From IMG/VR virus record IMGVR_UViG_3300032284_002390, positions 1 to 21,791 of that record: a stretch of 21,791 nt of DNA; one strand, written 5' to 3'. Positions 5,449 through 21,224 of the stretch are shown piece after piece. The translations under genes were made by a program, and so were the position numbers. The notes beneath the pieces were generated by a model that ran no database searches, was not told the DNA's origin, and was given only the letters and a program-made list of their open reading frames with translations. Every line of letters starts with the position of its first letter. Positions within the stretch are counted from its first letter, which is position 1. Origin of the DNA: a virus.

Positions 5449-5514
5449 GTTAGTTCTCCTTAGATGATATCAGGGATCGGTGTATTTGCACTGTTTACCC
5501 GCATATGATATCGG

Positions 5515-5522
5515 TTATTTAT
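5515..5522 (-). promoter_or_regulatory. Late-promoter-like octamer GATAAATA
   Basis: One mismatch to TATAAATA. It overlaps the last codons and stop of the gene at 5515-6606 and lies 67-74 bases upstream of the ATG at 5448, whose AAGGAG site and 66-base leader are consistent with separate late transcription. Confidence 0.4.
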
Positions 5523-6606
5523 CGTCTTCTTCTTCACCAGTCTCATGAGCTTCTTTGCTGCGAGGAGCCGGGCTCATGGTCTCATGTTTAGTTTTGTTTC
5601 CATGGTAGATGTGACGACTGCGTTTACCGCTGGGTTGTGTAACAACAAAACTATATTCCATTTCACCATTTTTCATTCTGCTGGTATGATCCGAAACCTT
5701 GTGTCCTGCTTTTTCATGACTGGCAATGCGTGAACGCATCTCTGGGCTCATGAGAGCTTCCAAATACAGATCCATGGTTTCGTAATAGATTTCTTCTTCG
5801 GCCATTTTCTGACCTGTATGAGACAGATAGGCATCTCCAGCAGCTTTGTATTTACGATCTAATTTGGTCTGAGCTAACTGAACCCCACCAGCTCTTTTTG
5901 CTGCTAGAGCCTTGGCATTGGCCTTTAATTGTTCCTCGCCGCTCCGATTTAAATGAGCCGCATCATAGGTAGCATCCATGGCCTGTTGATGAGCTTTATC
6001 AGCATAGCTTTGCAGAGTTTTGGCCTTGAGTTCTGTAATGGTTTCTTCACCTACTTTGCCCCAGCCTGACTTAGCTCTGATAGCAAATGCTAGCTCTTTC
6101 ATCTTGGTAAATTCATGTGAACCCTTGGCATGGGGACCAGATTTTTTAAGTCTGGTATACTGTGCTTCTAGATCAGCTTTGTCCTTGCCATGAAACATGC
6201 CCTTTTTAGCCGGATTGATTTCAACCTTGTTACCAAAAGCTTCTTTGGTTAATTTACTTACAGCTTTATCAACACCTTTGACTCTTTTAACAGCAGTAGC
6301 AAAATTTTTACCACCTTCGGTTCCGCGACGACCAGCTTCATAGGCCTGATTAGCTGCGCCTTCGAGACCACCTGTGGCTTTTTTAACATAAGAGCCCAGA
6401 GTCTTTTTGCTTAGTTCATTAATGATGCCAAAATGTTCGGCTACCAAAGGATGAATGCTTTCATTGGTCAACCTTTCGCGATCCAAATCAGCACTATTGG
6501 TAACGCCATCGAGCTTTTTAACACCCTTGACCTGTTTCTTTTCTAGTTCGTCATCTTTTTTCTGAACTTTGGATTCGGCTTCGCCCAGGTAATCTTTAAT
6601 CTTCAT
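5515..6606 (-). CDS. Charged virion-associated/scaffold-like protein with two KTLxSY motifs
   Basis: 363 residues, very rich in K, E, A and G and poor in aromatics, unlike a normal enzyme. It begins MKIKDYLGE|AESK: a nine-residue peptide ending L-G-E before Ala, which fits the (I/L)-x-E cleavage rule of T4 prohead protease gp21. Two peptides share identical spacing, I-x-E-L-x-x-K-T-L-x-S-Y-x-x-K-A, at residues about 62-77 and 190-205. I recall this motif recurring in proteins of many large phages. The C-terminus is acidic (GEEEDDK). It follows the previous gene by one base. A prohead core or internal head protein is a reasonable guess. Confidence 0.6.
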   Translation of the reverse strand: MKIKDYLGEAESKVQKKDDELEKKQVKGVKKLDGVTNSADLDRERLTNESIHPLVAEHFGIINELSKKTLGSYVKKATGGLEGAANQAYEAGRRGTEGGKNFATAVKRVKGVDKAVSKLTKEAFGNKVEINPAKKGMFHGKDKADLEAQYTRLKKSGPHAKGSHEFTKMKELAFAIRAKSGWGKVGEETITELKAKTLQSYADKAHQQAMDATYDAAHLNRSGEEQLKANAKALAAKRAGGVQLAQTKLDRKYKAAGDAYLSHTGQKMAEEEIYYETMDLYLEALMSPEMRSRIASHEKAGHKVSDHTSRMKNGEMEYSFVVTQPSGKRSRHIYHGNKTKHETMSPAPRSKEAHETGEEEDDK

Positions 6607-6607
6607 G

Positions 6608-7303
6608 TTAGTGACCTAATTTTTTATGTGCTGCAGCAGCGTGTTGAAATTTTTCTTTGCCATATTTTTTACGACCAATCCAGGCTGCTAGAGCTGCTGG
6701 ATTTTTTGCACCCTTGGCACTTAGTTTGCCTTCGAGTTTTTTAAAGCCCATGTAGGCTTCGGCAATTTCATTGATCTCTGCTTCGGTTAATTCAATTTCC
6801 AGATCTTCGGCTAGTACACCCAGCGCTTCTTCCAAATCTAGATCTTCTTTTTTAATCTTTTTACCAATAACATCACGACGATGTTTTAGATAAGCATCGG
6901 TTTTATCAACCTTGCCATCGTTGTTGATGTCAGCGTCTTCGTGACCAACTGGGTCCAGAGCTTCTTTAGTTAATTCGCCTTTTTTCTTGAGCATTTGCAG
7001 GCCTTTTTTGCTTACATGCACATGAGCCTCACTTACTAAAACATCCAGGCTGCTGGTTGGAACTGCTCTTTCCAGTCCATGATCAAATAATACGTCATAC
7101 CATTCAACCAGACCGTCTGCGGTTGGACGAGCATGATGCTCTGGGATGCAAGTACCCTTGCCCCATTCAGCGTGTTCTACATGCTTGGCACAGTTGTGAA
7201 CAATTTCACCATTGTCCATCATCATGGTTGCTTCAGCCAAGGGTTTTTGTTTGTACATGTTGCGAACGGTTTCCACAACATTCATGAATTTTTTACCTTC
7301 CAT
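6608..7303 (-). CDS. Conserved T4-like phage protein with Ca2+-binding-type loop
   Basis: 231 residues. Residues about 36-95 (HVEHAEWGKG, HHARPTADGLVEWYDVLFDH) form a conserved module seen in many T4-like phages, possibly SH3-like. Residues 125-136 (DINNDGKVDKTD) fit the DxNxDGxVDxxD calcium-binding loop of EF-hands and dockerins. The C-terminal 45 residues (FKKLEGKLSAKGAKNPAALA, AWIGRKKYG) are another widespread phage module. PLAE|A at residues 21-25 would be a possible prohead-protease site. An AGGAG lies 9 bases before the ATG at 7303; an internal ATG six codons on is an alternative start. Probably virion-associated; function unknown. Confidence 0.6.
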   Translation of the reverse strand: MEGKKFMNVVETVRNMYKQKPLAEATMMMDNGEIVHNCAKHVEHAEWGKGTCIPEHHARPTADGLVEWYDVLFDHGLERAVPTSSLDVLVSEAHVHVSKKGLQMLKKKGELTKEALDPVGHEDADINNDGKVDKTDAYLKHRRDVIGKKIKKEDLDLEEALGVLAEDLEIELTEAEINEIAEAYMGFKKLEGKLSAKGAKNPAALAAWIGRKKYGKEKFQHAAAAHKKLGH

Positions 7304-7315
7304 TTAAATATACTC

Positions 7316-7516
7316 CTATTTTTTATGTTGATGCATATTAATAAACCAATGTGCCAGTTGTTTTGCCCTGGGACTAGCAGTCTTACTAGATCTTACAGCC
7401 TTGAGCTGTGAAATGCTTTTACCTTTTAAACCATGTCGAGCCATGTCACCTTTGTCTTCGGGATGGCGTCCATCCTGAAAGTTTTCCAGGAACAGTTTAA
7501 ACCTTAACAGTGCCAT
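7316..7516 (-). CDS. Small conserved basic phage protein
   Basis: 66 residues, strongly basic: MALLRFKLFLENFQDGRHPE then DKGDMARHGLKGKSISQLKA, RSSKTASPRAKQLAHWFINM. The pattern DKGDxxRHGLKG...SPRxKQLAHWxINM is a small phage family that I recognise but cannot name. It overlaps the upstream gene by 13 bases, indicating coupled translation. It could be a small DNA-associated head protein, because it is basic and lies among virion-type genes, but there is no direct evidence. Confidence 0.6.
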   Translation of the reverse strand: MALLRFKLFLENFQDGRHPEDKGDMARHGLKGKSISQLKAVRSSKTASPRAKQLAHWFINMHQHKK

Positions 7517-8025
7517 TTACGCAGCGCCAGAGCTTTTCGGGTTGGTTCACCATTGGGCTTTTTCATAGGTCCTTTGCTGCCACCCATTCTAGCACAAAAA
7601 CTACGGCGTCGTCCAGCAGCCTTGCTGTCTGGATTCAGCTTGCTTGGCGGTGTTGTTACGGCCAGGCTTAGATGACTACCTGGATGTTCTCGGCGATAGC
7701 TGTCTATGCCTTTTTTATTCAAACCACCAGTTGGGTTTTTGCCTTCTTTGCGAGTCCAGGCCGGAGCACTTTCTGAAACCTTGGTGCCCATTTTAAATCT
7801 GGCTCTAATATTCTTTTTTAATTCACGCTTGTCATCAGGTGTAAAATCCAAGGACTTATTGGGTAAATTTCTGCGTTGCATGGGCGGTTCCTGAGCATGT
7901 TCGCTCTCCCAGCCCTGTTCTCTTACGGGCACACAGTTAGGAACTGTTCGTCCATTCTTTTCTTTTGTGCCTATGGCCTTGTAGCCTTTCCAGCAACTGG
8001 CTCGCATTTTATGAAAAGTTTTCAT
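7504..8025 (-). CDS. Basic Cys-containing phage protein (DUF6321-like C-terminus)
   Basis: 173 residues, very basic. The N-terminus MKTFHKMRASCWKGYKAIGT followed by NGRTVPNCVPV is one conserved block. Residues about 95-173 (GGLNKKGIDSYRRE, KAAGRRRSFCARMGGSKGPM, PTRKALALRKWHC) match a widespread phage domain that I recall as DUF6321. Conserved Cys and His suggest a small metal-bound or disulphide fold. It starts in an ATGA overlap with the gene upstream. It has the MKTF opening of its neighbours but lacks the (I/L)-x-E at residue 10, so it is not counted among the tagged proteins. Function unknown. Confidence 0.65.
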   Translation of the reverse strand: MKTFHKMRASCWKGYKAIGTKEKNGRTVPNCVPVREQGWESEHAQEPPMQRRNLPNKSLDFTPDDKRELKKNIRARFKMGTKVSESAPAWTRKEGKNPTGGLNKKGIDSYRREHPGSHLSLAVTTPPSKLNPDSKAAGRRRSFCARMGGSKGPMKKPNGEPTRKALALRKWHC

Positions 8026-8222
8026 ACACCGCCACCACCAGAACCACCACCAGAGCCACCACCACTGCCCCCAGAGCCAGCAGCGCCGCCACCAGCAGCA
8101 CCACCTTTAGAGCTAGAGGACTTAGCAGGGTGTGTATACTTTTTAATAGACTTGTAGTAGTCATAGTGAACCTTAGGATTCTCTGGATGTCCTTCTAAAA
8201 GATGTTCACGAAAAGTTTTCAT
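8022..8222 (-). CDS. Small protein: head-targeting-like N-terminus plus Gly/Ser-rich tail
   Basis: 66 residues. It starts MKTFREHLLE, a ten-residue peptide of the capsid-targeting type (M-x-x-F...L-x-E). A short charged piece, GHPENPKVHYDYYKSIKKYT, follows, then a low-complexity tail of Gly, Ser and Ala from residue about 35. Translation starts at TAATG overlapping the upstream stop. The Gly-rich tail is unlikely to fold; it could be a spacer, or the C-terminus could be a decayed remnant. Coding is supported by the overlaps at both ends and by the shared N-terminal peptide. Confidence 0.55.
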   Translation of the reverse strand: MKTFREHLLEGHPENPKVHYDYYKSIKKYTHPAKSSSSKGGAAGGGAAGSGGSGGGSGGGSGGGGV

Positions 8223-9814
8223 TAGCGTTTCTTCTGATGTGTACTTACTCTTACTGTTCCAAATGTACGACGAGCTCTTGGATTCTCAGATCCATTTACA
8301 TCATGACCTTCTTTGGGTGTATGATATACGCCAGCTGCGCCATAGAATAAATGTTTACCCTTGGGAGCTTCAAACTGGTGATTATGTACACCAATGGGAT
8401 GCTCTTTGCCTGATCGTACTACCTTGGTGGTTCGTACATGATAGCTATAGGGAGTTTCATGAATGACATGTCCTTCCATGTAATGACTGTCATTAAAGCC
8501 CGGAAAATCATAGCTGCGAACCTTTTTACCAATGATGCCATGACCTGCTACCTTGAGTCCTTTGATGTTCCAGCTGCGTTCACCTTCACGAGTTGCTTCG
8601 GTTAAAACCTCACCAGTGTGGTTAGCGCTTTCCATGTGTGGATAATCGGTTTTGTCTGTGGTGCTGCGAGCTGTATGGAAATGTTGTGGATCTTCATCGG
8701 TCAACTTCTGATACCAATCTGCATGTCCATGTTCGGTTTCACTCTTTTCAGTACCTGGATAATATTCAACAGTTGTATGTGTACCAGATGCAGCAATAAC
8801 TCTACCAATGCGATTGGTTCTCAAACACTGTACCAGATCACCTACTGATAGTTGTTCAGGATAGGTTTTTTCTGCGCCCATGTCAGTTGCTGTAGCATTG
8901 GCATCGTTCCAGACTTCAGGGCCTGGTTCAATGGCATGCACTGGAAGTGATTCATTTAGGCTTTCGGTATAGGTTGAACTAAACGCATAGGCCAAATGAC
9001 GTTCCATTTTAGGACTAAGTTTTTTCATCTGACTCATGCCTTTTTGTGCTAGTGCTCTAGCCTTGGCCATGCCAGCTTTTTCGGCAGCTGTGCTAGCTGA
9101 TGCAGGTGTTTCTGCTTTTTTATTTAACATAGCTGCTTCATCAACTTTGCTCATCATGTAGTTTGCACAGGTGGTAATATAGTCTTCGCTCAGGGTAATT
9201 TTTGTCTGGATCCATTCAGGTAAATTTTCTGTATCTGTCAGATGATCCATGAGAGCCTCGGCATTACGACAAATGGTGCGTAATTGTTCTTTGGCCATCT
9301 GACCTTCATAATCGTATTCCTGAACATCCTTGGCTTCGGCTACTTTTTTAACCTTGGTTTTGCTCAGTGGTTTACCAACCTTGGCTTTTTCTGTAGCAGC
9401 TGTTTCTCCAGCTATGGGCTCAGTGGTTGGTGTAAGATTGATTGCTGCATTTACATTAGGCAAGCTATCAGAGCTCATGATCTGTTCCTGATCACCAGGA
9501 TTAAAGCTCGGAGTGCGAAGTTTAACTTCGGCTTCCTTGAGTTTTTTAGGTTCTGTCATTTTAGGGACTTCCTTTTGTTCTTCGGGTTTTTTATTAAAAG
9601 CTCTGTTGGCTATGTCTCGATTCTTAAAGAATGTTGCCAGTTGTTTGTGTGCTCTGCTCTCATTGGTCTTGCTTAAATAATCCAGGTGTTTGGTCAGCTG
9701 TTTACGATAGCTAGGTGCTTCTTTTTTATACTTGGAATGATCCAGTAGTTTTTCTTTGCGCGCCTTGATTTCAGCTGCTCGTTCTTTGTTGCTTAAAAGA
9801 TTATTGTCATCCAT
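8222..9814 (-). CDS. Large conserved T4-like virion-associated protein
   Basis: 530 residues. Residues 1-100 are charged and helical. Residues about 167-225 (EYDYEGQMAKEQLRTICRNA, NLPEWIQTKITLSEDYITT) form a block strongly conserved across T4-like phages, with a characteristic YDYEGxMAKxQL...LPEWxQxKIxxxEDYI pattern. Residues about 343-395 (LSVGDLVQCLRTNRIGRVIA) look like an SH3/KOW-type beta barrel, similar in kind to one in the nucleotidyltransferase at 10835-11848. The C-terminal 120 residues are rich in His and Tyr. LKE|A near residue 92 could be a prohead-protease site. The function is not known to me; late expression and virion association are inferred from context. Confidence 0.65.
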   Translation of the reverse strand: MDDNNLLSNKERAAEIKARKEKLLDHSKYKKEAPSYRKQLTKHLDYLSKTNESRAHKQLATFFKNRDIANRAFNKKPEEQKEVPKMTEPKKLKEAEVKLRTPSFNPGDQEQIMSSDSLPNVNAAINLTPTTEPIAGETAATEKAKVGKPLSKTKVKKVAEAKDVQEYDYEGQMAKEQLRTICRNAEALMDHLTDTENLPEWIQTKITLSEDYITTCANYMMSKVDEAAMLNKKAETPASASTAAEKAGMAKARALAQKGMSQMKKLSPKMERHLAYAFSSTYTESLNESLPVHAIEPGPEVWNDANATATDMGAEKTYPEQLSVGDLVQCLRTNRIGRVIAASGTHTTVEYYPGTEKSETEHGHADWYQKLTDEDPQHFHTARSTTDKTDYPHMESANHTGEVLTEATREGERSWNIKGLKVAGHGIIGKKVRSYDFPGFNDSHYMEGHVIHETPYSYHVRTTKVVRSGKEHPIGVHNHQFEAPKGKHLFYGAAGVYHTPKEGHDVNGSENPRARRTFGTVRVSTHQKKR

Positions 9815-10041
9815 TATACCACACCTATGAGAACCTGGGTTACTTTAACTGCCCAGCGACTTACTAATTCTTTGTTGGCTGTGTCATGAGCCGCATAGAT
9901 CTTAACTACTTCGTCTATGAGTTCATTTTTCTCAGCCAGGGTGAGTTCTCCCTTTTTGTAATTTTGCATGATGACCAATAGTTCGCGAGCCAGGTCGCCA
10001 ATAGGGCCTTGTTCATCTTTGTGTTTTAATAATTCATCCAT
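9814..10041 (-). CDS. Small helical phage protein next to lipoprotein
   Basis: About 75 residues from the ATG at 10041 (MDELLKHKDEQGPIGDLARE), which overlaps the lipoprotein stop as TAATG; an ATG at 10056 is the other option. It is helical and amphipathic, ending in WAVKVTQVLIGVV, too short and mixed to be a clear membrane span. The GPIGDxARELxxI...NELIDEVVKI pattern is a small phage family I recall beside similar lipoproteins. The pairing with a lipoprotein could indicate a lysis or envelope role, but this is inference. Its own stop overlaps the next ATG. Confidence 0.55.
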   Translation of the reverse strand: MDELLKHKDEQGPIGDLARELLVIMQNYKKGELTLAEKNELIDEVVKIYAAHDTANKELVSRWAVKVTQVLIGVV

Positions 10042-10409
10042 TACCGAGTGCTCCAAGCTTTATTAAGAACTACCAGTCGTTGTTTAACCAAATCTAACCA
10101 GATATCGCAGGCCTTTTCACTCTGTGTGGTTTTGGCCTTTTGTAGATTATCCAGTATGCCCTGGGTACTTTCTTTTTGTGGATCATTGCGGAACTGCGCA
10201 TATTCGTTCAGAAACAACGCATTCTTTTCCAGGCTATCCCAGGTTGTTTTATCCTTGCAACTAATGCTTTCAATGCCAATTTTGGTGTTTACATAGGCAC
10301 TGGCCAGAGCCGGATCATGGTCTCGGGGCAAAAATTGTTTAGCTGCCATCATGGCAGTACAGCCATTGAGCATTAATGCCATGGCGATTATATTTATCAT
10401 TTTCATCAT
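10041..10409 (-). CDS. Predicted phage lipoprotein
   Basis: 122 residues. The N-terminus MMKMINIIAMALMLNGC is a short basic head, a hydrophobic stretch and LNGC, a near-consensus lipobox with Cys17 as the lipidated residue (Asn at -2 is unusual). The mature part is soluble and helical and has two further Cys (SCKDKTTW and KACDIWL) that might form a disulphide in the periplasm. It overlaps the ferritin gene stop by four bases (ATGA) and the next start by one. Phage lipoproteins of this size are often outer-membrane spanins or superinfection-exclusion proteins. No cognate inner-membrane spanin is obvious here, so the role stays open. Confidence 0.6.
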   Translation of the reverse strand: MMKMINIIAMALMLNGCTAMMAAKQFLPRDHDPALASAYVNTKIGIESISCKDKTTWDSLEKNALFLNEYAQFRNDPQKESTQGILDNLQKAKTTQSEKACDIWLDLVKQRLVVLNKAWSTR

Positions 10410-10834
10410 TTTAATATACTCTTGAGCATCCAGTCCAGCTTCTTATGATACATCATGCGGTCCTGAAGAAAGTTACTTAATCCTATGAGCATTTCAGCCT
10501 CGGCTGTATGATAGGCCATAAGAATACCTTCCATGACTATTTCATTGTCAGCATGCAGCTGTTTGAACATGCTCATGGGGCTAGGAATGGTATCACTTAA
10601 TTTAATGTGTGAAAGTTCATCCAGCATGCGATCTGCGTCGGGCGCATAGGCGTCTAATTGGCGAACCTGTTCGGCTATGTCATCCACGGCTTCCCAGGTT
10701 TGTTCATAGATTTTATTTAAAAATTTATGATACTGTACAAAGTCCGGACCCTCTACATTCCAGTGATAGAAATGGGCTCGGCTATAAAAGGCAAAGGTAT
10801 CTGCCTGAACTCGTTTTAATTCGTCGACTATCAT
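10406..10834 (-). CDS. Dps-like ferritin (DNA-protection / iron-oxidising protein)
   Basis: 142 residues, somewhat shorter than bacterial Dps. The signature AHFYHWNVEGPDFVQYHKFL followed by WEAVDDIAEQV is the Dps helix-turn region. The ferroxidase ligands of the Dps family have the spacing H-x11-H-x14-D-x3-E, and here H24, H36, D51 and E55 match it exactly. Dps proteins form 12-subunit shells that oxidise Fe2+ with peroxide and often bind DNA. The protein has no lysine-rich N-terminal tail, so DNA binding is less certain. It lies between the enzyme block and the lipoprotein, overlapping the latter by four bases. It has no head-targeting peptide. It could protect phage DNA from oxidative damage late in infection. 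Confidence 0.8.
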   Translation of the reverse strand: MIVDELKRVQADTFAFYSRAHFYHWNVEGPDFVQYHKFLNKIYEQTWEAVDDIAEQVRQLDAYAPDADRMLDELSHIKLSDTIPSPMSMFKQLHADNEIVMEGILMAYHTAEAEMLIGLSNFLQDRMMYHKKLDWMLKSILK

Positions 10835-11848
10835 CTAGTCCTCCATTTTTCTAAAATTGCGAATCTTGCGCATGGTAGCCGCATGATTCTGTGTAATTCG
10901 GGGATCTACCTTAGGATCAATACCTGCCAGGGCCAGTTTGTTTTGCAATGCTATCTGAGCACCAGATTCGTCATCACGAGCTCCCTGAGCATGAACTGGA
11001 TCCTGCATGGCCAAGAACAATCTAAAGTTGTGCATGGCTGGTGCAGTCATTTCGGCTTCGGCTATGACATCAACATCTTTGATCCAGCGTTTGGCGCTGA
11101 CCTCTTCGGTAAGCTGAACGGTCACATAGGTTGGACCTCGGTAAACTACTCGACCTTTTAGACCTGTAAAAGCATCTTCTACCAGACAGCCCAGCTTAAG
11201 TACACGACCGGACTTGTAGTTTTCACGATCTATGTCTTCTTTGAGACCCATGTGCTTACGAGTTTCGTGATAAAGTTCCAGAGCATGATTTTCGTTTCGA
11301 GCTATGTGCTGTGGCAGATTGTTTTTAAATTTTTCATAGCTGCCCAGTTTGGCATGAGCTCGTTGTTCGGTTCCACTGATGCCTTCTTTGCGAGCACCAG
11401 TATTGGCCACGGTGATTTTATCAAACTTGTAGTAGCCATGAGCTTTGCCTCGTACACCATTGTAGCTGTTCAAAAGCTTTTTATATTCTGCTGCACGATC
11501 GCCACCGCCGGCCATGATTAAATGACGCACGCCACGATTATAAGCATGCACAGCATGATGTAATAGGGTGGGGTGTTCGGGTGTGCTAACACTGATGTGA
11601 GTGTTGCTTAAATGACCAAAAGCTCTTTTTAGATGTTTTATTTTTTGACCAGGCGACAGAGGGTTCTTGTTGGTGTCATGAGTATGAGTTCCCAGGATAT
11701 GCAAACTGGCATTGTGCTTTTGCGCCAGGGCATGAGCATGCATGACATTTTCTTCGTGTCCTTTGTGCAGTCCCTGGAATCGGCCTGTGAGCAATACTTC
11801 GGCTCGGGGAGCTGCGGCTTCTATGATTACCTGTTTAAAGCTTTTCAT
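10835..11848 (-). CDS. Nucleotidyltransferase (NMN adenylyl/cytidylyltransferase-like) with head-targeting-type N-terminus
   Basis: 337 residues. It begins MKSFKQVIIE|AAAP, a ten-residue capsid-targeting-like peptide. GRFQGLHKGH (residues 22-31) is the GxFxxxHxGH nucleotide-binding motif, and EGISGTEQR (155-163) is the matching ISxTxxR motif of the HIGH-type nucleotidyltransferase superfamily (NadM/NadR, cytidylyltransferases), so both active-site motifs are intact. Substrate is not determinable: NMN, nicotinate mononucleotide, FMN and phospho-sugars are all possible. Residues about 215-263 form an SH3-like module (LGCLVEDAFTGLKGRVVYRG). Residues 272-337 begin MHNFRLFLAM and look like an appended small protein. 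Residues 25-110 are notably His-rich. It overlaps the HAD gene by four bases (ATGA). Confidence 0.75.
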   Translation of the reverse strand: MKSFKQVIIEAAAPRAEVLLTGRFQGLHKGHEENVMHAHALAQKHNASLHILGTHTHDTNKNPLSPGQKIKHLKRAFGHLSNTHISVSTPEHPTLLHHAVHAYNRGVRHLIMAGGGDRAAEYKKLLNSYNGVRGKAHGYYKFDKITVANTGARKEGISGTEQRAHAKLGSYEKFKNNLPQHIARNENHALELYHETRKHMGLKEDIDRENYKSGRVLKLGCLVEDAFTGLKGRVVYRGPTYVTVQLTEEVSAKRWIKDVDVIAEAEMTAPAMHNFRLFLAMQDPVHAQGARDDESGAQIALQNKLALAGIDPKVDPRITQNHAATMRKIRNFRKMED

Positions 11849-12483
11849 TGGTGGTCCTCGGGACGATATCTTTCAAAGGTCCCATTGTGTTTGACATGAA
11901 ATGCATGAAATTTAATATGTGGATATTCATGTCTGAGTTGTAAAAAGTGATGCAGGTTATGATGACTATCATCATACATGGTTACATTACCGTATTTATG
12001 CGTGTTCAAATGACGTCTCAGCACCATGTTTTTGGCTTCGCCTGGACTGGTAGCTCCGGGTTCATTGCCTGCTCTGTGTACATGTATGTGCTCAATGGGT
12101 ATGCCCTGTTTCTTAAAGGTATGCAGAAACTTGTGCTTGTCATCAAAGTCTGTACGCGCAGTGTTAAAGATGATCTTGCTGTGCGGGTGATGTTTACTTA
12201 TGTGAGCGTGCAGATTTTTGATCTTGTTGATCATGTGAGGTATGGGCTGGCTTTCATGATGAAACTTATGAGCACTGCGGAATTCTGAATAATCATAATG
12301 ATGACCAGGTGGAAGCTTGTGAGTATTGTATTCACTGTTGGTAAGCTTCTGTACAACATGACCATGCTGATTCTTTACATGAATCTTGGCCGTGGTATGG
12401 AATAAGGTATCGTCTATGTCGGCTACGTGCAACCAGTGCTTGTAGTTGTCAGATTCTTTTATGAAGTCTCGGAAATTAATCAT
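11845..12483 (-). CDS. HAD-superfamily phosphatase, His-rich, head-targeting-type N-terminus
   Basis: 212 residues. It starts MINFRDFIKE|SDN, a ten-residue capsid-targeting-like peptide. The HAD motifs are complete: DIDDT with D22 and D24 (motif I nucleophile and acid), T108 in IIFNTART (motif II), K151 (motif III) and DD at 171-172 in VTMYDDSHHNL (motif IV). The arrangement resembles the 3'-phosphatase domain of T4 polynucleotide kinase and related phage phosphatases, but the substrate is not set by sequence. About 35 of 212 residues are His (16-17%), far above normal. It overlaps both neighbours by ATGA. Next to a ligase-like and a nucleotidyltransferase gene, a role in nucleic-acid end processing or nucleotide metabolism is plausible. 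Confidence 0.75.
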   Translation of the reverse strand: MINFRDFIKESDNYKHWLHVADIDDTLFHTTAKIHVKNQHGHVVQKLTNSEYNTHKLPPGHHYDYSEFRSAHKFHHESQPIPHMINKIKNLHAHISKHHPHSKIIFNTARTDFDDKHKFLHTFKKQGIPIEHIHVHRAGNEPGATSPGEAKNMVLRRHLNTHKYGNVTMYDDSHHNLHHFLQLRHEYPHIKFHAFHVKHNGTFERYRPEDHQ

Positions 12484-13712
12484 TTTCCAAATCCACCCTT
12501 TTGTAAGTTTGCCTGACTAAATCCACCAACTCCACGATTGATTAACTTAGTAGGACGATTTTCCTTGGTTACGGCTACAAATCCCTCAGGACCGGTCTTG
12601 GCTCCGTTGATGCTGTGCGTATAGCCAGTCTGATCAGCTCTTTCTAAAGCAGGCATGAGCGTATTTTTAGCATTCTGCAGATGCTGATGAATCTTTAGCA
12701 ATTCTGTAACAGCAGGTTTATCATTTTTTAAGGTTGTCATGTCGTTTTGCATCTGCATGTTCTTGGCTTCCTTGGCCTTGGCAGTGCTGACTGCAGCTAT
12801 GGCCTTGGCATGACGTTCCTGTATGTGCTTTTGTAGTCCCTGTACATTGGGTTCCTGACCTTCGCGCACACTTTTATTAATATAGGTGCTTAGATGTTCC
12901 TGCATCTTGGGATTGCTGGTTACAGCAAACATTCTGTTGCGATCTGTATTTTTAAATATTTCACCCGCGGCATTCATTTCTTTTTTAAAGGCTTCGTGTT
13001 CCTGTGGCAGTAATCCCTGCTTGTTCTGCTGAGCTGGATCACGATTGGGCTTAAAGGTGCTTTCCCAGGTATGCAAATGCACACTGGGTTCCTTGGTGTT
13101 GAAACCACTCAGGTCTGGTGTATAGTTGGCCTTCATGCTGCTGAGACTGCGACCCTCATAGCCTGTGTGTACGGCTATGCCAATCTGAGCATGTTTAATT
13201 TTGCGACCTTCTTTGCTGTTGGCTGGTGTAGAATAATCTATGAGCTGAGGTTTAAAGTGAAGATTTTTGCCGTGTTCGGTTACATCATGATCGGCCTTGT
13301 TGTATAAGAAGTCACCCTGATAAACACCATGCGGTGGAGCCACCTTGGGCAGGTATTTGAGAGCAGCCTTGAGCTTGCTGACCAGACCCGGAGCATGACC
13401 ATGATTATGCTCTATGTCTGCGGCTGTATAATTGATCTTGGGAGTCTTGTTAAAGGCACTTTTGCTGGCTACGAAAAACTTGCCATTTTCGGGATTGCGA
13501 CCGAATATGACGCTGGGGGCGCCATCGAACTTGGTCATGATTCTGGTGCCAGTATCATGTCCCTGCAGAGTTTCGGCCGTGGTTTTTAGGGTATTGAATG
13601 CGTGATGGAATCCAGCCTCACCGCTTTTGATAGGGTGATCCTCGGGATGTTCCAGATGTGTTAATTTTTCTTCAGTGGTTTCTTCCACTAAAAAACTGCT
13701 GAATGCTTTCAT
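12480..13712 (-). CDS. KxDG nucleotidyltransferase/ligase-like protein (DUF6267-like)
   Basis: I choose the ATG at 13712, giving 410 residues beginning MKAFSSFLVE|ETTE, because an upstream in-frame start at 13775 would lie before the late promoter at 13741-13748; ATG 13721 is a minor option. The first ten residues are a capsid-targeting-like peptide. MTKFDGAPSVIFG (K61-F-D-G64) is the KxDG motif of covalent nucleotidyltransferases (RNA/DNA ligases, capping enzymes). HGVYQGDFLYN and HAQIGIAVHTGYEG are conserved later blocks of a phage family I recall as DUF6267. Ligase activity has not been shown for that family to my knowledge. It heads the leftward late operon and overlaps the HAD gene by four bases. 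Confidence 0.7.
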   Translation of the reverse strand: MKAFSSFLVEETTEEKLTHLEHPEDHPIKSGEAGFHHAFNTLKTTAETLQGHDTGTRIMTKFDGAPSVIFGRNPENGKFFVASKSAFNKTPKINYTAADIEHNHGHAPGLVSKLKAALKYLPKVAPPHGVYQGDFLYNKADHDVTEHGKNLHFKPQLIDYSTPANSKEGRKIKHAQIGIAVHTGYEGRSLSSMKANYTPDLSGFNTKEPSVHLHTWESTFKPNRDPAQQNKQGLLPQEHEAFKKEMNAAGEIFKNTDRNRMFAVTSNPKMQEHLSTYINKSVREGQEPNVQGLQKHIQERHAKAIAAVSTAKAKEAKNMQMQNDMTTLKNDKPAVTELLKIHQHLQNAKNTLMPALERADQTGYTHSINGAKTGPEGFVAVTKENRPTKLINRGVGGFSQANLQKGGFGK

Positions 13713-13740
13713 AAGACCCATTAGAATATATTGTACCGTA

Positions 13741-13754
13741 TATTTATATAAATA
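13741..13754. promoter_or_regulatory. Palindromic bidirectional T4-type late promoter
   Basis: TATTTATATAAATA is a perfect 14-base palindrome that contains TATAAATA, the T4 late-promoter consensus, on both strands (plus 13747-13754, minus 13748-13741). The expected start sites, about 6 bases past each octamer, fit both divergent genes: rightward to the ATG at 13775, with AAGGAG at 13764-13769, and leftward to the ATG at 13712. The two octamers share two bases, so two polymerases cannot bind at once. Use would need a gp55-type late sigma factor, which is not in this window. Confidence 0.8.
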
Positions 13755-13774
13755 AATGATACGAAGGAGAAGCA

Positions 13775-14785
13775 ATGCATACTTTTATACAATATCTCAA
13801 AGAATCAGCAGGCGCCGAAAGTAACAGCAAGGGTGTATTTCACGAGTTAGAAACACTCAGGCATCTAAATGGTGGAAAACATGCTACTCATCACCCCAAC
13901 GAAGAGGGTCTTACTCCTGCTCAGGCACATCACCATCATGGTGCTGCTCTGGGACACGAACTAGCTCATAACATTGGCAAACACAGTGCTGAAACTGCTC
14001 GTGTAGTTCGTGAACATCTGCACAAAATAGGATTTTTAAAAACCAAAACCGAACCACTCAAAGGAACCTGGACCAGCAAAGCCGGTCAGGTGCATAGAGT
14101 AACCGGTCATGCAGCCGATAAAACCAATCCCAGCGATTATGTACTAACCAATAAACGTGGTCACCACATAGGTGTAAGCGCTAAAATCGGTGAAAAACCC
14201 GGACTAAGATCTCCAGGTCTAAAAGATTTAGATAAACTAACCAAGGCGCCTAGTTTAGAACATCACATTACAACTCATAAAAATAAACTGGTAAAAATGA
14301 TGGGCCATCATGTATCAGCTGGTGCAGGTCAGGAACAACGCAACAAGGAATTCCGAGCAGCTGAATCCGGAGCTGGTCATAAACAGGCCGAGGCTGTCAA
14401 GGCCGAAAGTCTAGCATTCAGAACCAAAATGGCCAAGCATTATGCCAAACATTTCAATGCTCTGAGTCATGAAGAAAAACATCATGCTGTTAGACGATTA
14501 TTAAATGCCGAACAGGCCGGCACTCATTATATCAAAACTCATGTTGATGACCGAACTGGACACATACATGTTAGCGATCCTGTAGCAGAGTTTCATCACA
14601 TGCACAAAAAAATGAGTCATTATTCTGCTGAGCATTCTGGCACCTACATGAAGATCCATGCTCATGATAAAGCCGGTAAAAGCTATCATATTGCCAATCT
14701 AAATCTCAAAGATAAAAGTTCACCCATGACCAACATCACGGGCGCAGTATCAGCAGCCAAAGATTATCACAAGGCTGTAGCCTAG
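13775..14785 (+). CDS. Candidate PD-(D/E)XK-type nuclease, His-rich, head-targeting-type N-terminus
   Basis: 336 residues; the only plus-strand gene here. It begins MHTFIQYLKE|SAGA, a capsid-targeting-like ten-residue peptide. KGVFHELETLRHLNGG (E24) looks like the first helix of PD-(D/E)XK enzymes, and NPSDYVLTNKRGHHIGVSAK gives D121 and K137 in a D-(15)-xK hairpin. The residue two before the Lys is Ser rather than Glu/Asp, so this is a variant site and the call is tentative. About 43 His (13%) are spread along the chain, including HHHH at 52-55. A strong AAGGAG precedes the ATG by 5 bases, and transcription would come from the palindromic late promoter. A basic DNA-packing protein is the main alternative. 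Confidence 0.55.
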   Translation: MHTFIQYLKESAGAESNSKGVFHELETLRHLNGGKHATHHPNEEGLTPAQAHHHHGAALGHELAHNIGKHSAETARVVREHLHKIGFLKTKTEPLKGTWTSKAGQVHRVTGHAADKTNPSDYVLTNKRGHHIGVSAKIGEKPGLRSPGLKDLDKLTKAPSLEHHITTHKNKLVKMMGHHVSAGAGQEQRNKEFRAAESGAGHKQAEAVKAESLAFRTKMAKHYAKHFNALSHEEKHHAVRRLLNAEQAGTHYIKTHVDDRTGHIHVSDPVAEFHHMHKKMSHYSAEHSGTYMKIHAHDKAGKSYHIANLNLKDKSSPMTNITGAVSAAKDYHKAVA

Positions 14786-19844: not shown

Positions 19845-21224
19845 CTAGAATTTAATGTCACTATAGTCCTGACTGCTGCGAATCTTACTGCCAAACTTGG
19901 TGTCCAATTCGGCAATCTGTCCACTCTGGCTAATGCCTCGCTGGGCACTTAATTCTACATCATACAACTTCATTTTAGCTCGGTCTACACCTATGGCAAA
20001 TTTACGATTCAGGGTTGGATCATTGTAGCGATTCTTCAACTGCTTGACCATGAGCTGATTCAATCCTTCTAACTCCTCGCTGCTGATCAGCGCAAACATG
20101 AAGTCTACAGTTGCTGGTAGTCCAAAACTCTCAGATGTATCAGTCAATTCAACATCGGTATTACCATAACCACTACGAGTGGTCTGAGTAGCACTTAGTA
20201 TGGGTACATCATGCTCAACTGCCAGTCCTCGCATCTCTTCGGCTATGGCCTTGATATAGGTATAGCTGTTTACACCTGCACCCTGTTTGATTCTGCTGCT
20301 AGTACAGATATTCAAATAGTCAATGATGATCATGTCAGGTCTAAAACTCTGTTTAAGAGCCAGCTCATTTAATAGGGCCTTAAAGTGTCCACAATGAGCT
20401 CCAGCGGTCGGATATTCTTTGATGATTAATCGGCCTTCGGTTTTGTCCTTGATCTTACTGATGCGATTATCAAACATCTGTTTGGGTAGATCATGCAGCT
20501 GATCCATGTCAATGTTCATGAGGTTAGCATCAATACGCTCAGCTATTCTTTCTTCTGCCATTTCCATGGTAATGTAAAGTACATTTTTACCCTGTGCCAA
20601 TGTGCTGGCAGCAACATGACACATGAACAGAGACTTACCCACGCCAGTACCTGCAAGTACAACATTAAGAGTTTTGTTAGGCATACCACCGTTGGTGATT
20701 TTATTGAAGTAGTCCAAATCGAAAGGTATGCGGCTTTCAACTCTGTGATAGAATTCGAAACGCTCAGCAGCATCGCCAATGTAATCATGACCGACATGAT
20801 TATCAAAACCAACTGCCAGAGCTTCTTGCAGGATACTTGGCAGGGCCTCAGGAGTATGTTTTTTATCACGACCGTCGATGATTTCAACGGACTTAAGTAT
20901 GGCATTATACACCGCCTTGTCTTTGCAAAATTTTTCGGTTTCGGTAGTCAACCAATCGGTATTGGTCTCTGAGGGTTCTAAATCACGCACTAGCTCAGTG
21001 GCTTCTTTGAATGCAGTTTCATTTAGATTGCTATTCTGCAGAGCTATGTCCAGAGCTTCACGAGTTGGGCAGGCATTATAACGATTGATAAAGTCTGCCA
21101 TGGTCTTATAGACAATTAGATCAGCATTGCTAAAATAATCGGGTCTTAAAAATGGGAAAACCTGACGCATGTAATTTTCATCATGCATCAAATTTCTAAG
21201 TATGGTCTTCTCAATCCTGTCCAT
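19845..21224 (-). CDS. 41: Replicative DNA helicase, T4 gp41/DnaB type
   Basis: 459 residues, close to T4 gp41 (about 475). Residues 1-65 (IEKTILRNLMHDENYMRQVF) match the helical N-terminal domain. Walker A is AGTGVGKS (191-198), the conserved Glu follows in YITMEMAEERIAER, Walker B is PDMIIIDYLN (D302), and SATQTTRSGYG (344-354) with DTSESFGLPATVDF is the H4/arginine-finger region of DnaB helicases. It is a hexameric 5'-to-3' helicase that opens the fork and works with a gp61-like primase (not in the window). AAGGA lies 6 bases before the ATG. It overlaps the gene upstream by 14 bases; gene order uvsX-x-41 is as in T4. Confidence 0.95.
   Translation of the reverse strand: MDRIEKTILRNLMHDENYMRQVFPFLRPDYFSNADLIVYKTMADFINRYNACPTREALDIALQNSNLNETAFKEATELVRDLEPSETNTDWLTTETEKFCKDKAVYNAILKSVEIIDGRDKKHTPEALPSILQEALAVGFDNHVGHDYIGDAAERFEFYHRVESRIPFDLDYFNKITNGGMPNKTLNVVLAGTGVGKSLFMCHVAASTLAQGKNVLYITMEMAEERIAERIDANLMNIDMDQLHDLPKQMFDNRISKIKDKTEGRLIIKEYPTAGAHCGHFKALLNELALKQSFRPDMIIIDYLNICTSSRIKQGAGVNSYTYIKAIAEEMRGLAVEHDVPILSATQTTRSGYGNTDVELTDTSESFGLPATVDFMFALISSEELEGLNQLMVKQLKNRYNDPTLNRKFAIGVDRAKMKLYDVELSAQRGISQSGQIAELDTKFGSKIRSSQDYSDIKF

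Follow-up and report, generated by a model that had tools for sequence, protein, structure and literature searches.

A probable T4-type capsid targeting leader shared by unrelated proteins, several of them enzyme-like, in a genome fragment of a T4-like phage

The internal proteins IPI, IPII and IPIII of phage T4 have unrelated bodies and share an N-terminal leader of ten residues, with aromatic residues at positions 4 and 7 followed by (I/L)8-x-E10; Alt and gp24 have similar leaders. In IPIII the first ten residues, which constitute a capsid targeting sequence (CTS), are sufficient for packaging, positions 4 and 7 being used for targeting and positions 8 and 10 for processing by gp21, the protease that cleaves T4 proteins after L/I-x-E, and it has been suggested in a review of T4 that T4-like phages load various proteins by means of a CTS (PMC9026906). 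Internal proteins that a prohead protease cleaves, and that are delivered along with the DNA, are also described in the literature for phiKZ and SPN3US (ejection or inner-body proteins) and for P1 (Dar proteins), although the phiKZ protease follows a different rule, S/A-x-E. A third related case is that of the cyanomyoviruses S-SM1, S-SZBM1, S-SCSM1, S-CBWM1, S-CREM2 and S-CRM01, which carry virion enzymes, among them a cytidylyltransferase/NMNAT and kinases, encoded in a region adjoining gp41; in the accessible portions of these reports packaging is treated as uncertain and a targeting leader is not mentioned. In this work, we describe five proteins sharing a leader of the T4 type, all encoded within positions 8022-14785 of a viral IMG/VR record of 21,791 bases (IMGVR_UViG_3300032284_002390), referred to as the window.

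Four of the five genes lie on the minus strand. They encode a Gly-rich protein of 66 residues (8022-8222; start MKTFREHLLE, at 8193-8222), a cytidylyltransferase-like protein (10835-11848; MKSFKQVIIE, at 11819-11848), a HAD-type phosphatase featuring a DIDDT motif (11845-12483; MINFRDFIKE, at 12454-12483) and a DUF6267 protein with a predicted RNA/DNA-ligase-like fold (12480-13712; Pfam PF19782, E 1.5e-90; MKAFSSFLVE, at 13683-13712), whose start is an inner ATG of a TTG-started open reading frame (ORF), 12480-13775, and coincides with the start conserved in relatives. The fifth gene, a nuclease candidate with a PD-(D/E)XK-like motif pattern, is divergently transcribed from the plus strand (13775-14785; MHTFIQYLKE, at 13775-13804). 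The original prediction, based on inspection of the letters, had listed these five N-termini: sequences, coordinates and strands all proved exact. They share the form M-x-x-F-x-x-x-(I/L)-x-E: position 4 is F, where T4 has Y, position 8 is I or L and position 10 is E throughout. At position 7, three have an aromatic residue (F, F, Y), 10835-11848 has V and 8022-8222 has H.

The rule F4, (I/L)8, E10 selects 5 of the 38 predicted N-termini of the window. By chance about 0.01-0.02 would be expected, given the composition rate (2.7e-4) or the internal rate (5.6e-4 per position), and the Poisson P lies between about 1e-12 and 4e-11. The internal rate pooled over six T4-like genomes is also 2.7e-4, for a slightly stricter pattern requiring a hydrophobic residue at position 7 as well, which is satisfied by four of the five tagged N-termini. 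As a positive control, a scan with the same pattern picks out ipII, ipIII and gp24 in T4, and in whole-contig scans of three large relatives (225, 97 and 158 ORFs) the pattern is confined to the tagged cluster. Short motifs of this kind might, in principle, arise by chance resemblance in an AT-rich genome with a Lys/Phe-rich proteome, and other T4 proteins do fit a relaxed pattern without having a known head function; however, five instances against 0.01 expected, together with conservation over dozens of contigs, already refute this explanation, whose probability is negligible. The T4 gp61.1 protein (54 aa, L127:18966-19130), starting with MKTFKEFIKE/D (here and below, a slash follows the last residue of the leader), satisfies the CTS rule.

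The bodies behind the leader were predicted to be unrelated, and this was borne out: once residues 1-10 are removed, the five proteins show no mutual BLAST match below E 0.1. The leader is, on the other hand, kept in homologues whose bodies have diverged. Among 23 distinct N-termini of the HAD family, F4 is found in 21, (Y/F)7 in all, a hydrophobic residue at 8 in 22 and E10 in all, M1 being nearly invariant, while residues 11-14, just after the kept positions, are variable; the residues conserved in relatives are thus exactly the key ones of T4 IPIII (4, 7, 8 and 10). The closer DUF6267 relatives feature the same conservation. Homologues of the nuclease candidate, 26-37% identical, retain the CTS in L005, L027, L028 and L033; they were obtained by BLAST against fetched related loci, a back-translated pattern search for relatives of 13775-14785 having found none. 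Relatives of the Gly-rich protein also retain it (MLTFKQYLEE/A in L080, MLTFLEHLAE/A in L004). Codons at the conserved leader positions vary synonymously, indicating that selection acts on the protein.

The same leader precedes other bodies in relatives, namely DUF6321, a ParB-like protein and a phospholipase-A2-like protein, and in L101 five tagged genes form a run. Where DUF6267 and the cytidylyltransferase are fused and bear the tag, this is present as a single copy at the front, and is therefore modular in behaviour. Homologues that are fused or split and more distantly related have other leaders or none. Since the genes of the window adjoin, most of them overlapping by a few bases, exchange of 5' ends is conceivable, and the shared start might have no role in targeting, being left over from common ancestry or a gene duplication, or serving as a signal in the RNA or for translation initiation. 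This is very improbable: it is already contradicted by the unrelated bodies, by the maintenance of residues 1, 4, 7, 8 and 10 only, with synonymous codon variation, by the retention of the first tag alone in tag-bearing fusions and by the occurrence of tagged homologues in virions, described below. A phospholipase-A2-like protein with the canonical CTS MITFKQYLAE/I is found at L034:3369-3728. In L003, two tagged genes (5487-6553 and 8204-9270) are found a second time on the other strand of that contig, which may reflect an assembly palindrome.

Published proteomes, as far as their accessible portions go, place a cytidylyltransferase homologue in the virions of five cyanophages, and the CTS is present in all four of the proteins checked, as well as on the S-CRM01 kinase. 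In S-CREM2, for which 52 virion proteins are listed (PMC10665884), the proteins following the F4 rule are the SAM lyase gp6, the kinase gp14 (allowing for its GTG start), gp136 and the cytidylyltransferase gp154, and all four belong to the virion list, which covers 52 of 219 proteins (P 0.003); with a wider rule, admitting L/I/Y also at position 4 and taking in gp175, the figure is five out of six. The S-SZBM1 cytidylyltransferase _140 (MRFRQFIIE/A) is a virion protein (PMC9146016), and so are, in the accessible portions of the respective reports, the S-SCSM1 NMNAT (MKSFLQFLKE/A; PMC9602691) and S-SM1 T4-GC190 (MKKFSAFLNE/A; PMC3037559). For S-CBWM1, virion detection is reported in the accessible text, and its genome gave no match to the S-SZBM1 cytidylyltransferase. 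S-CREM2 gp12 (L070:7704-10313), a virion protein annotated as Cas9, contains LRFASFMAE/A at residues 17-25; no Pfam match supports the annotation and the name is doubtful. S-CRM01 g128 bears a leader similar to that of gp12. A homologue of the gp14 kinase was not found in S-TIM5.

It had been proposed to look for gp21 and gp23 homologues and to compare their cut sites with the leader rule. Neither gene was found in the 21.8-kb window fragment. Among relatives, a Peptidase S77 is present in six records and gp23 in six, the two together in five and each alone in one more, and the gp23 proteins feature (L/F)-x-E just ahead of the conserved shell domain, close to the position of the cut in T4 gp23. 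In this respect the relatives resemble T4, with its gp21-type protease and gp23 site.

The sequence TATAAATA, the T4 late promoter motif, occurs twice as an exact match in the window, once per strand, and both instances lie between the two divergent tagged genes: 13741-13748 on the minus strand, ahead of the operon led by DUF6267, and 13747-13754 on the plus strand, ahead of 13775-14785. The count is ordinary (shuffle mean 1.1), while the placement is unusual. Of 18 relatives, 10 have the motif 37-41 nt ahead of DUF6267; in G009 it is also found 38-39 nt ahead of gp22 and gp23, and ahead of a sheath-like gene, and G003 and G007 agree in part with this arrangement. The position of the motif points to late expression of the tagged genes together with head proteins.

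Taken together, conservation at the positions critical in T4, persistence of the leader over diverged bodies, tagged homologues in virions and a shared late promoter motif sustain the proposed T4-type CTS, and we consider it highly probable that the leader works as such. A number of observations weigh against this conclusion. The protease and gp23 are missing from the fragment itself, and two of the tagged five have H or V, not an aromatic residue, at position 7. Virion presence is known from homologues in other phages rather than from this virus, and the S-CREM2 authors concede that enzymes of this kind could be contaminants that co-purified (PMC10665884), although a leader common to the enzymes found in virions favours cargo over contamination. 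In S-SZBM1, two proteins with a CTS-type start, _191 and _192, were not detected in the 30-protein proteome (PMC9146016), so that the strict association, pooled over S-CREM2 and S-SZBM1, is 4 out of 6 (P 0.013). Finally, the DUF6267 homologues of S-SZBM1, S-SM1 and S-CRM01 have no leader, which implies that action from the virion is not obligatory for DUF6267; the untagged S-SZBM1 protein, _141, is not among the virion proteins (PMC9146016). Conserved bodies with unconserved first ten residues had been named at the outset as an outcome speaking against a CTS: this is what is seen for DUF6267 in these three phages, and not for the HAD family, the nuclease-candidate family or the closer DUF6267 relatives.

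If the leader is a CTS, the tagged proteins would be made late in infection, alongside head proteins, and would dock in the prohead core through the aromatic residues at positions 4 and 7. A gp21-type protease would then cut after (I/L)-x-E, at residue 10, freeing the bodies among the packaged DNA, and these would accompany the genome into the next host. The cargo set would comprise the ligase-fold protein, the HAD phosphatase, the cytidylyltransferase-like protein, the nuclease candidate and the Gly-rich peptide. Injection, as well as cleavage behind residue 10, is expected here by analogy with T4. The leader might, instead, bring the proteins into the prohead to act there, in assembly or DNA packaging, with no functional injection. 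T4 core proteins are gp21 substrates as well, and Alt, the IPs and gp24 have similar leaders; moreover, the ends of packaged DNA might be substrates for ligase, nuclease and phosphatase activities. We regard this as unlikely, though clearly less so than the alternatives considered above, as the CTS-bearing IPs and Alt of T4 are ejected (PMC9026906) and the cargo differs among relatives (phospholipase-A2-like, ParB-like, SAM lyase, kinase), a variation more in keeping with effectors directed at the host than with conserved components of assembly.

Among the putative cargo proteins under a working CTS, 12480-13712 had been called KxDG ligase-like, a description now strengthened by a structure model and VIA-align. 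The KxDG motif (K61, D63, G64) is invariant in 27 sequences. The model has a pLDDT of 88.6, and its residues 1-17 are disordered, as would suit a removable leader. In VIA-align the best Z is 9.0 over about 189 residues, and the 50 matches listed are RNA or DNA ligases. Foldseek gave no significant match with the same model, so the likeness comes from VIA-align, where a Z of 9 is moderate. By its motif and its modelled ligase nucleotidyltransferase fold, the protein fits the covalent nucleotidyltransferase (RNA/DNA ligase) superfamily. Profile searches of the PDB with the DUF6267 and HAD alignments yielded nothing useful, while the cytidylyltransferase alignment gave weak nucleotidyltransferase matches; 10835-11848 itself matches phage cytidylyltransferases (phrog_3041/395; E 3e-36 for phrog_3041). 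In 11845-12483 the DIDDT sequence corresponds to the HAD DxDxT motif, and a match to the phrog_415 polynucleotide kinase is weak (E 4e-4), with none in the PDB. For 13775-14785, the suggestion of a nuclease holds as far as the motif goes, since homologues conserve an E ... D ... SxK pattern, its sole basis, and does not extend to the fold: a structure model from a three-sequence alignment was discarded (pLDDT 37).

The function of each cargo protein in this virus can be proposed only from such similarities. A ligase-fold protein accompanied by a nuclease candidate and a phosphatase makes activity on nucleic-acid ends a reasonable guess. More speculatively, a dedicated and exchangeable late operon of aquatic T4-like phages might preload the virion with a multi-enzyme kit. 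Its core (ligase-fold protein, HAD phosphatase, cytidylyltransferase-like protein and nuclease candidate) would have nucleic acids or nucleotides as substrates within a minute of the start of infection, and might, for instance, mend DNA or tRNA cleaved by host defences at a time when no phage gene is yet expressed; we put this forward as a tentative possibility, which on present evidence we would doubt rather than assume.

The cargo differs from that of T4, which has small IPs and, as the known injected enzyme, Alt: here it includes enzyme-sized proteins of 212-410 aa in one putative late operon beside gp41. It differs from that of cyanophages in that their DUF6267 is often untagged. The CTS as such is familiar from T4. 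Its systematic application, by aquatic T4-like phages, to enzymes that form an exchangeable set seems to be new, and so does its ability to predict virion cargo from sequence. In the literature searched, the term capsid targeting sequence and cyanophages were joined nowhere beyond a T4 review, and DUF6267 was not mentioned. Studies of purified cyanophage particles have repeatedly met such enzymes, leaving undecided whether they are cargo or contamination: the leader would explain these findings, and turns the question into a prediction, because it names likely cargo from the genome sequence alone and gives the exact mature N-terminus to be expected. DUF6267, a Pfam family of unknown function, gains a ligase-like fold and, for some of its members, a site of action.

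Judging by the gp41-type primase-helicase gene upstream of the cluster (19845-21224, minus strand; 72% DNA identity to a cyanophage primase-helicase), the window is placed in the T4-like group. The order gp41 - tagged cluster is common to the window, L101, S-CRM01, HTVC008M and Melnitz. Homologues of DUF6267 are found in 467 phage records and those of the cytidylyltransferase in 454, mostly from T4-like cyanophages, with the addition of HTVC008M and Methylophilales phages.

Other genes of the minus strand carry leader variants. A 363-aa protein (5515-6606) begins, as previously noticed and here verified, with the nine-residue CTS-like leader MKIKDYLGE/A (at 6580-6606), and its relatives in L123 and L124 begin with MKLRDYMGE/A. 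A 231-aa protein (6608-7303) has a leader of 24 residues, ending in PLAE/A, which resembles leaders of 20 residues found in L111 and L114. Such leaders, 20-24 residues long and following the pattern SVAxTYxxMLxE/A, precede unrelated bodies, namely DUF6267, the nuclease candidate and the 6608-7303 family (L111:1197-2285, L114:3680-4903), and may represent a second type of head-targeting leader. A 66-aa protein (7316-7516), with the degenerate leader MALLRFKLFLE/N, is a weak candidate; its relative in L016 (13788-13982) begins with MKSFSDFIDE/N. The adjacent DUF6321 protein (7504-8025; Pfam PF19846, E 9e-22) has no canonical CTS here, and is directly tagged in L015 (14013, MVSFKAFLNE/T) and L016 (10206, MISFKEFISE/V). 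Genes 7316-7516 and 7504-8025 overlap in the window; in L124, a close relative, they are joined into a single protein. Within the cluster, 10406-10834 encodes a Ferritin/Dps-like protein (Pfam Ferritin, E 5.5e-17), which does not carry a CTS.

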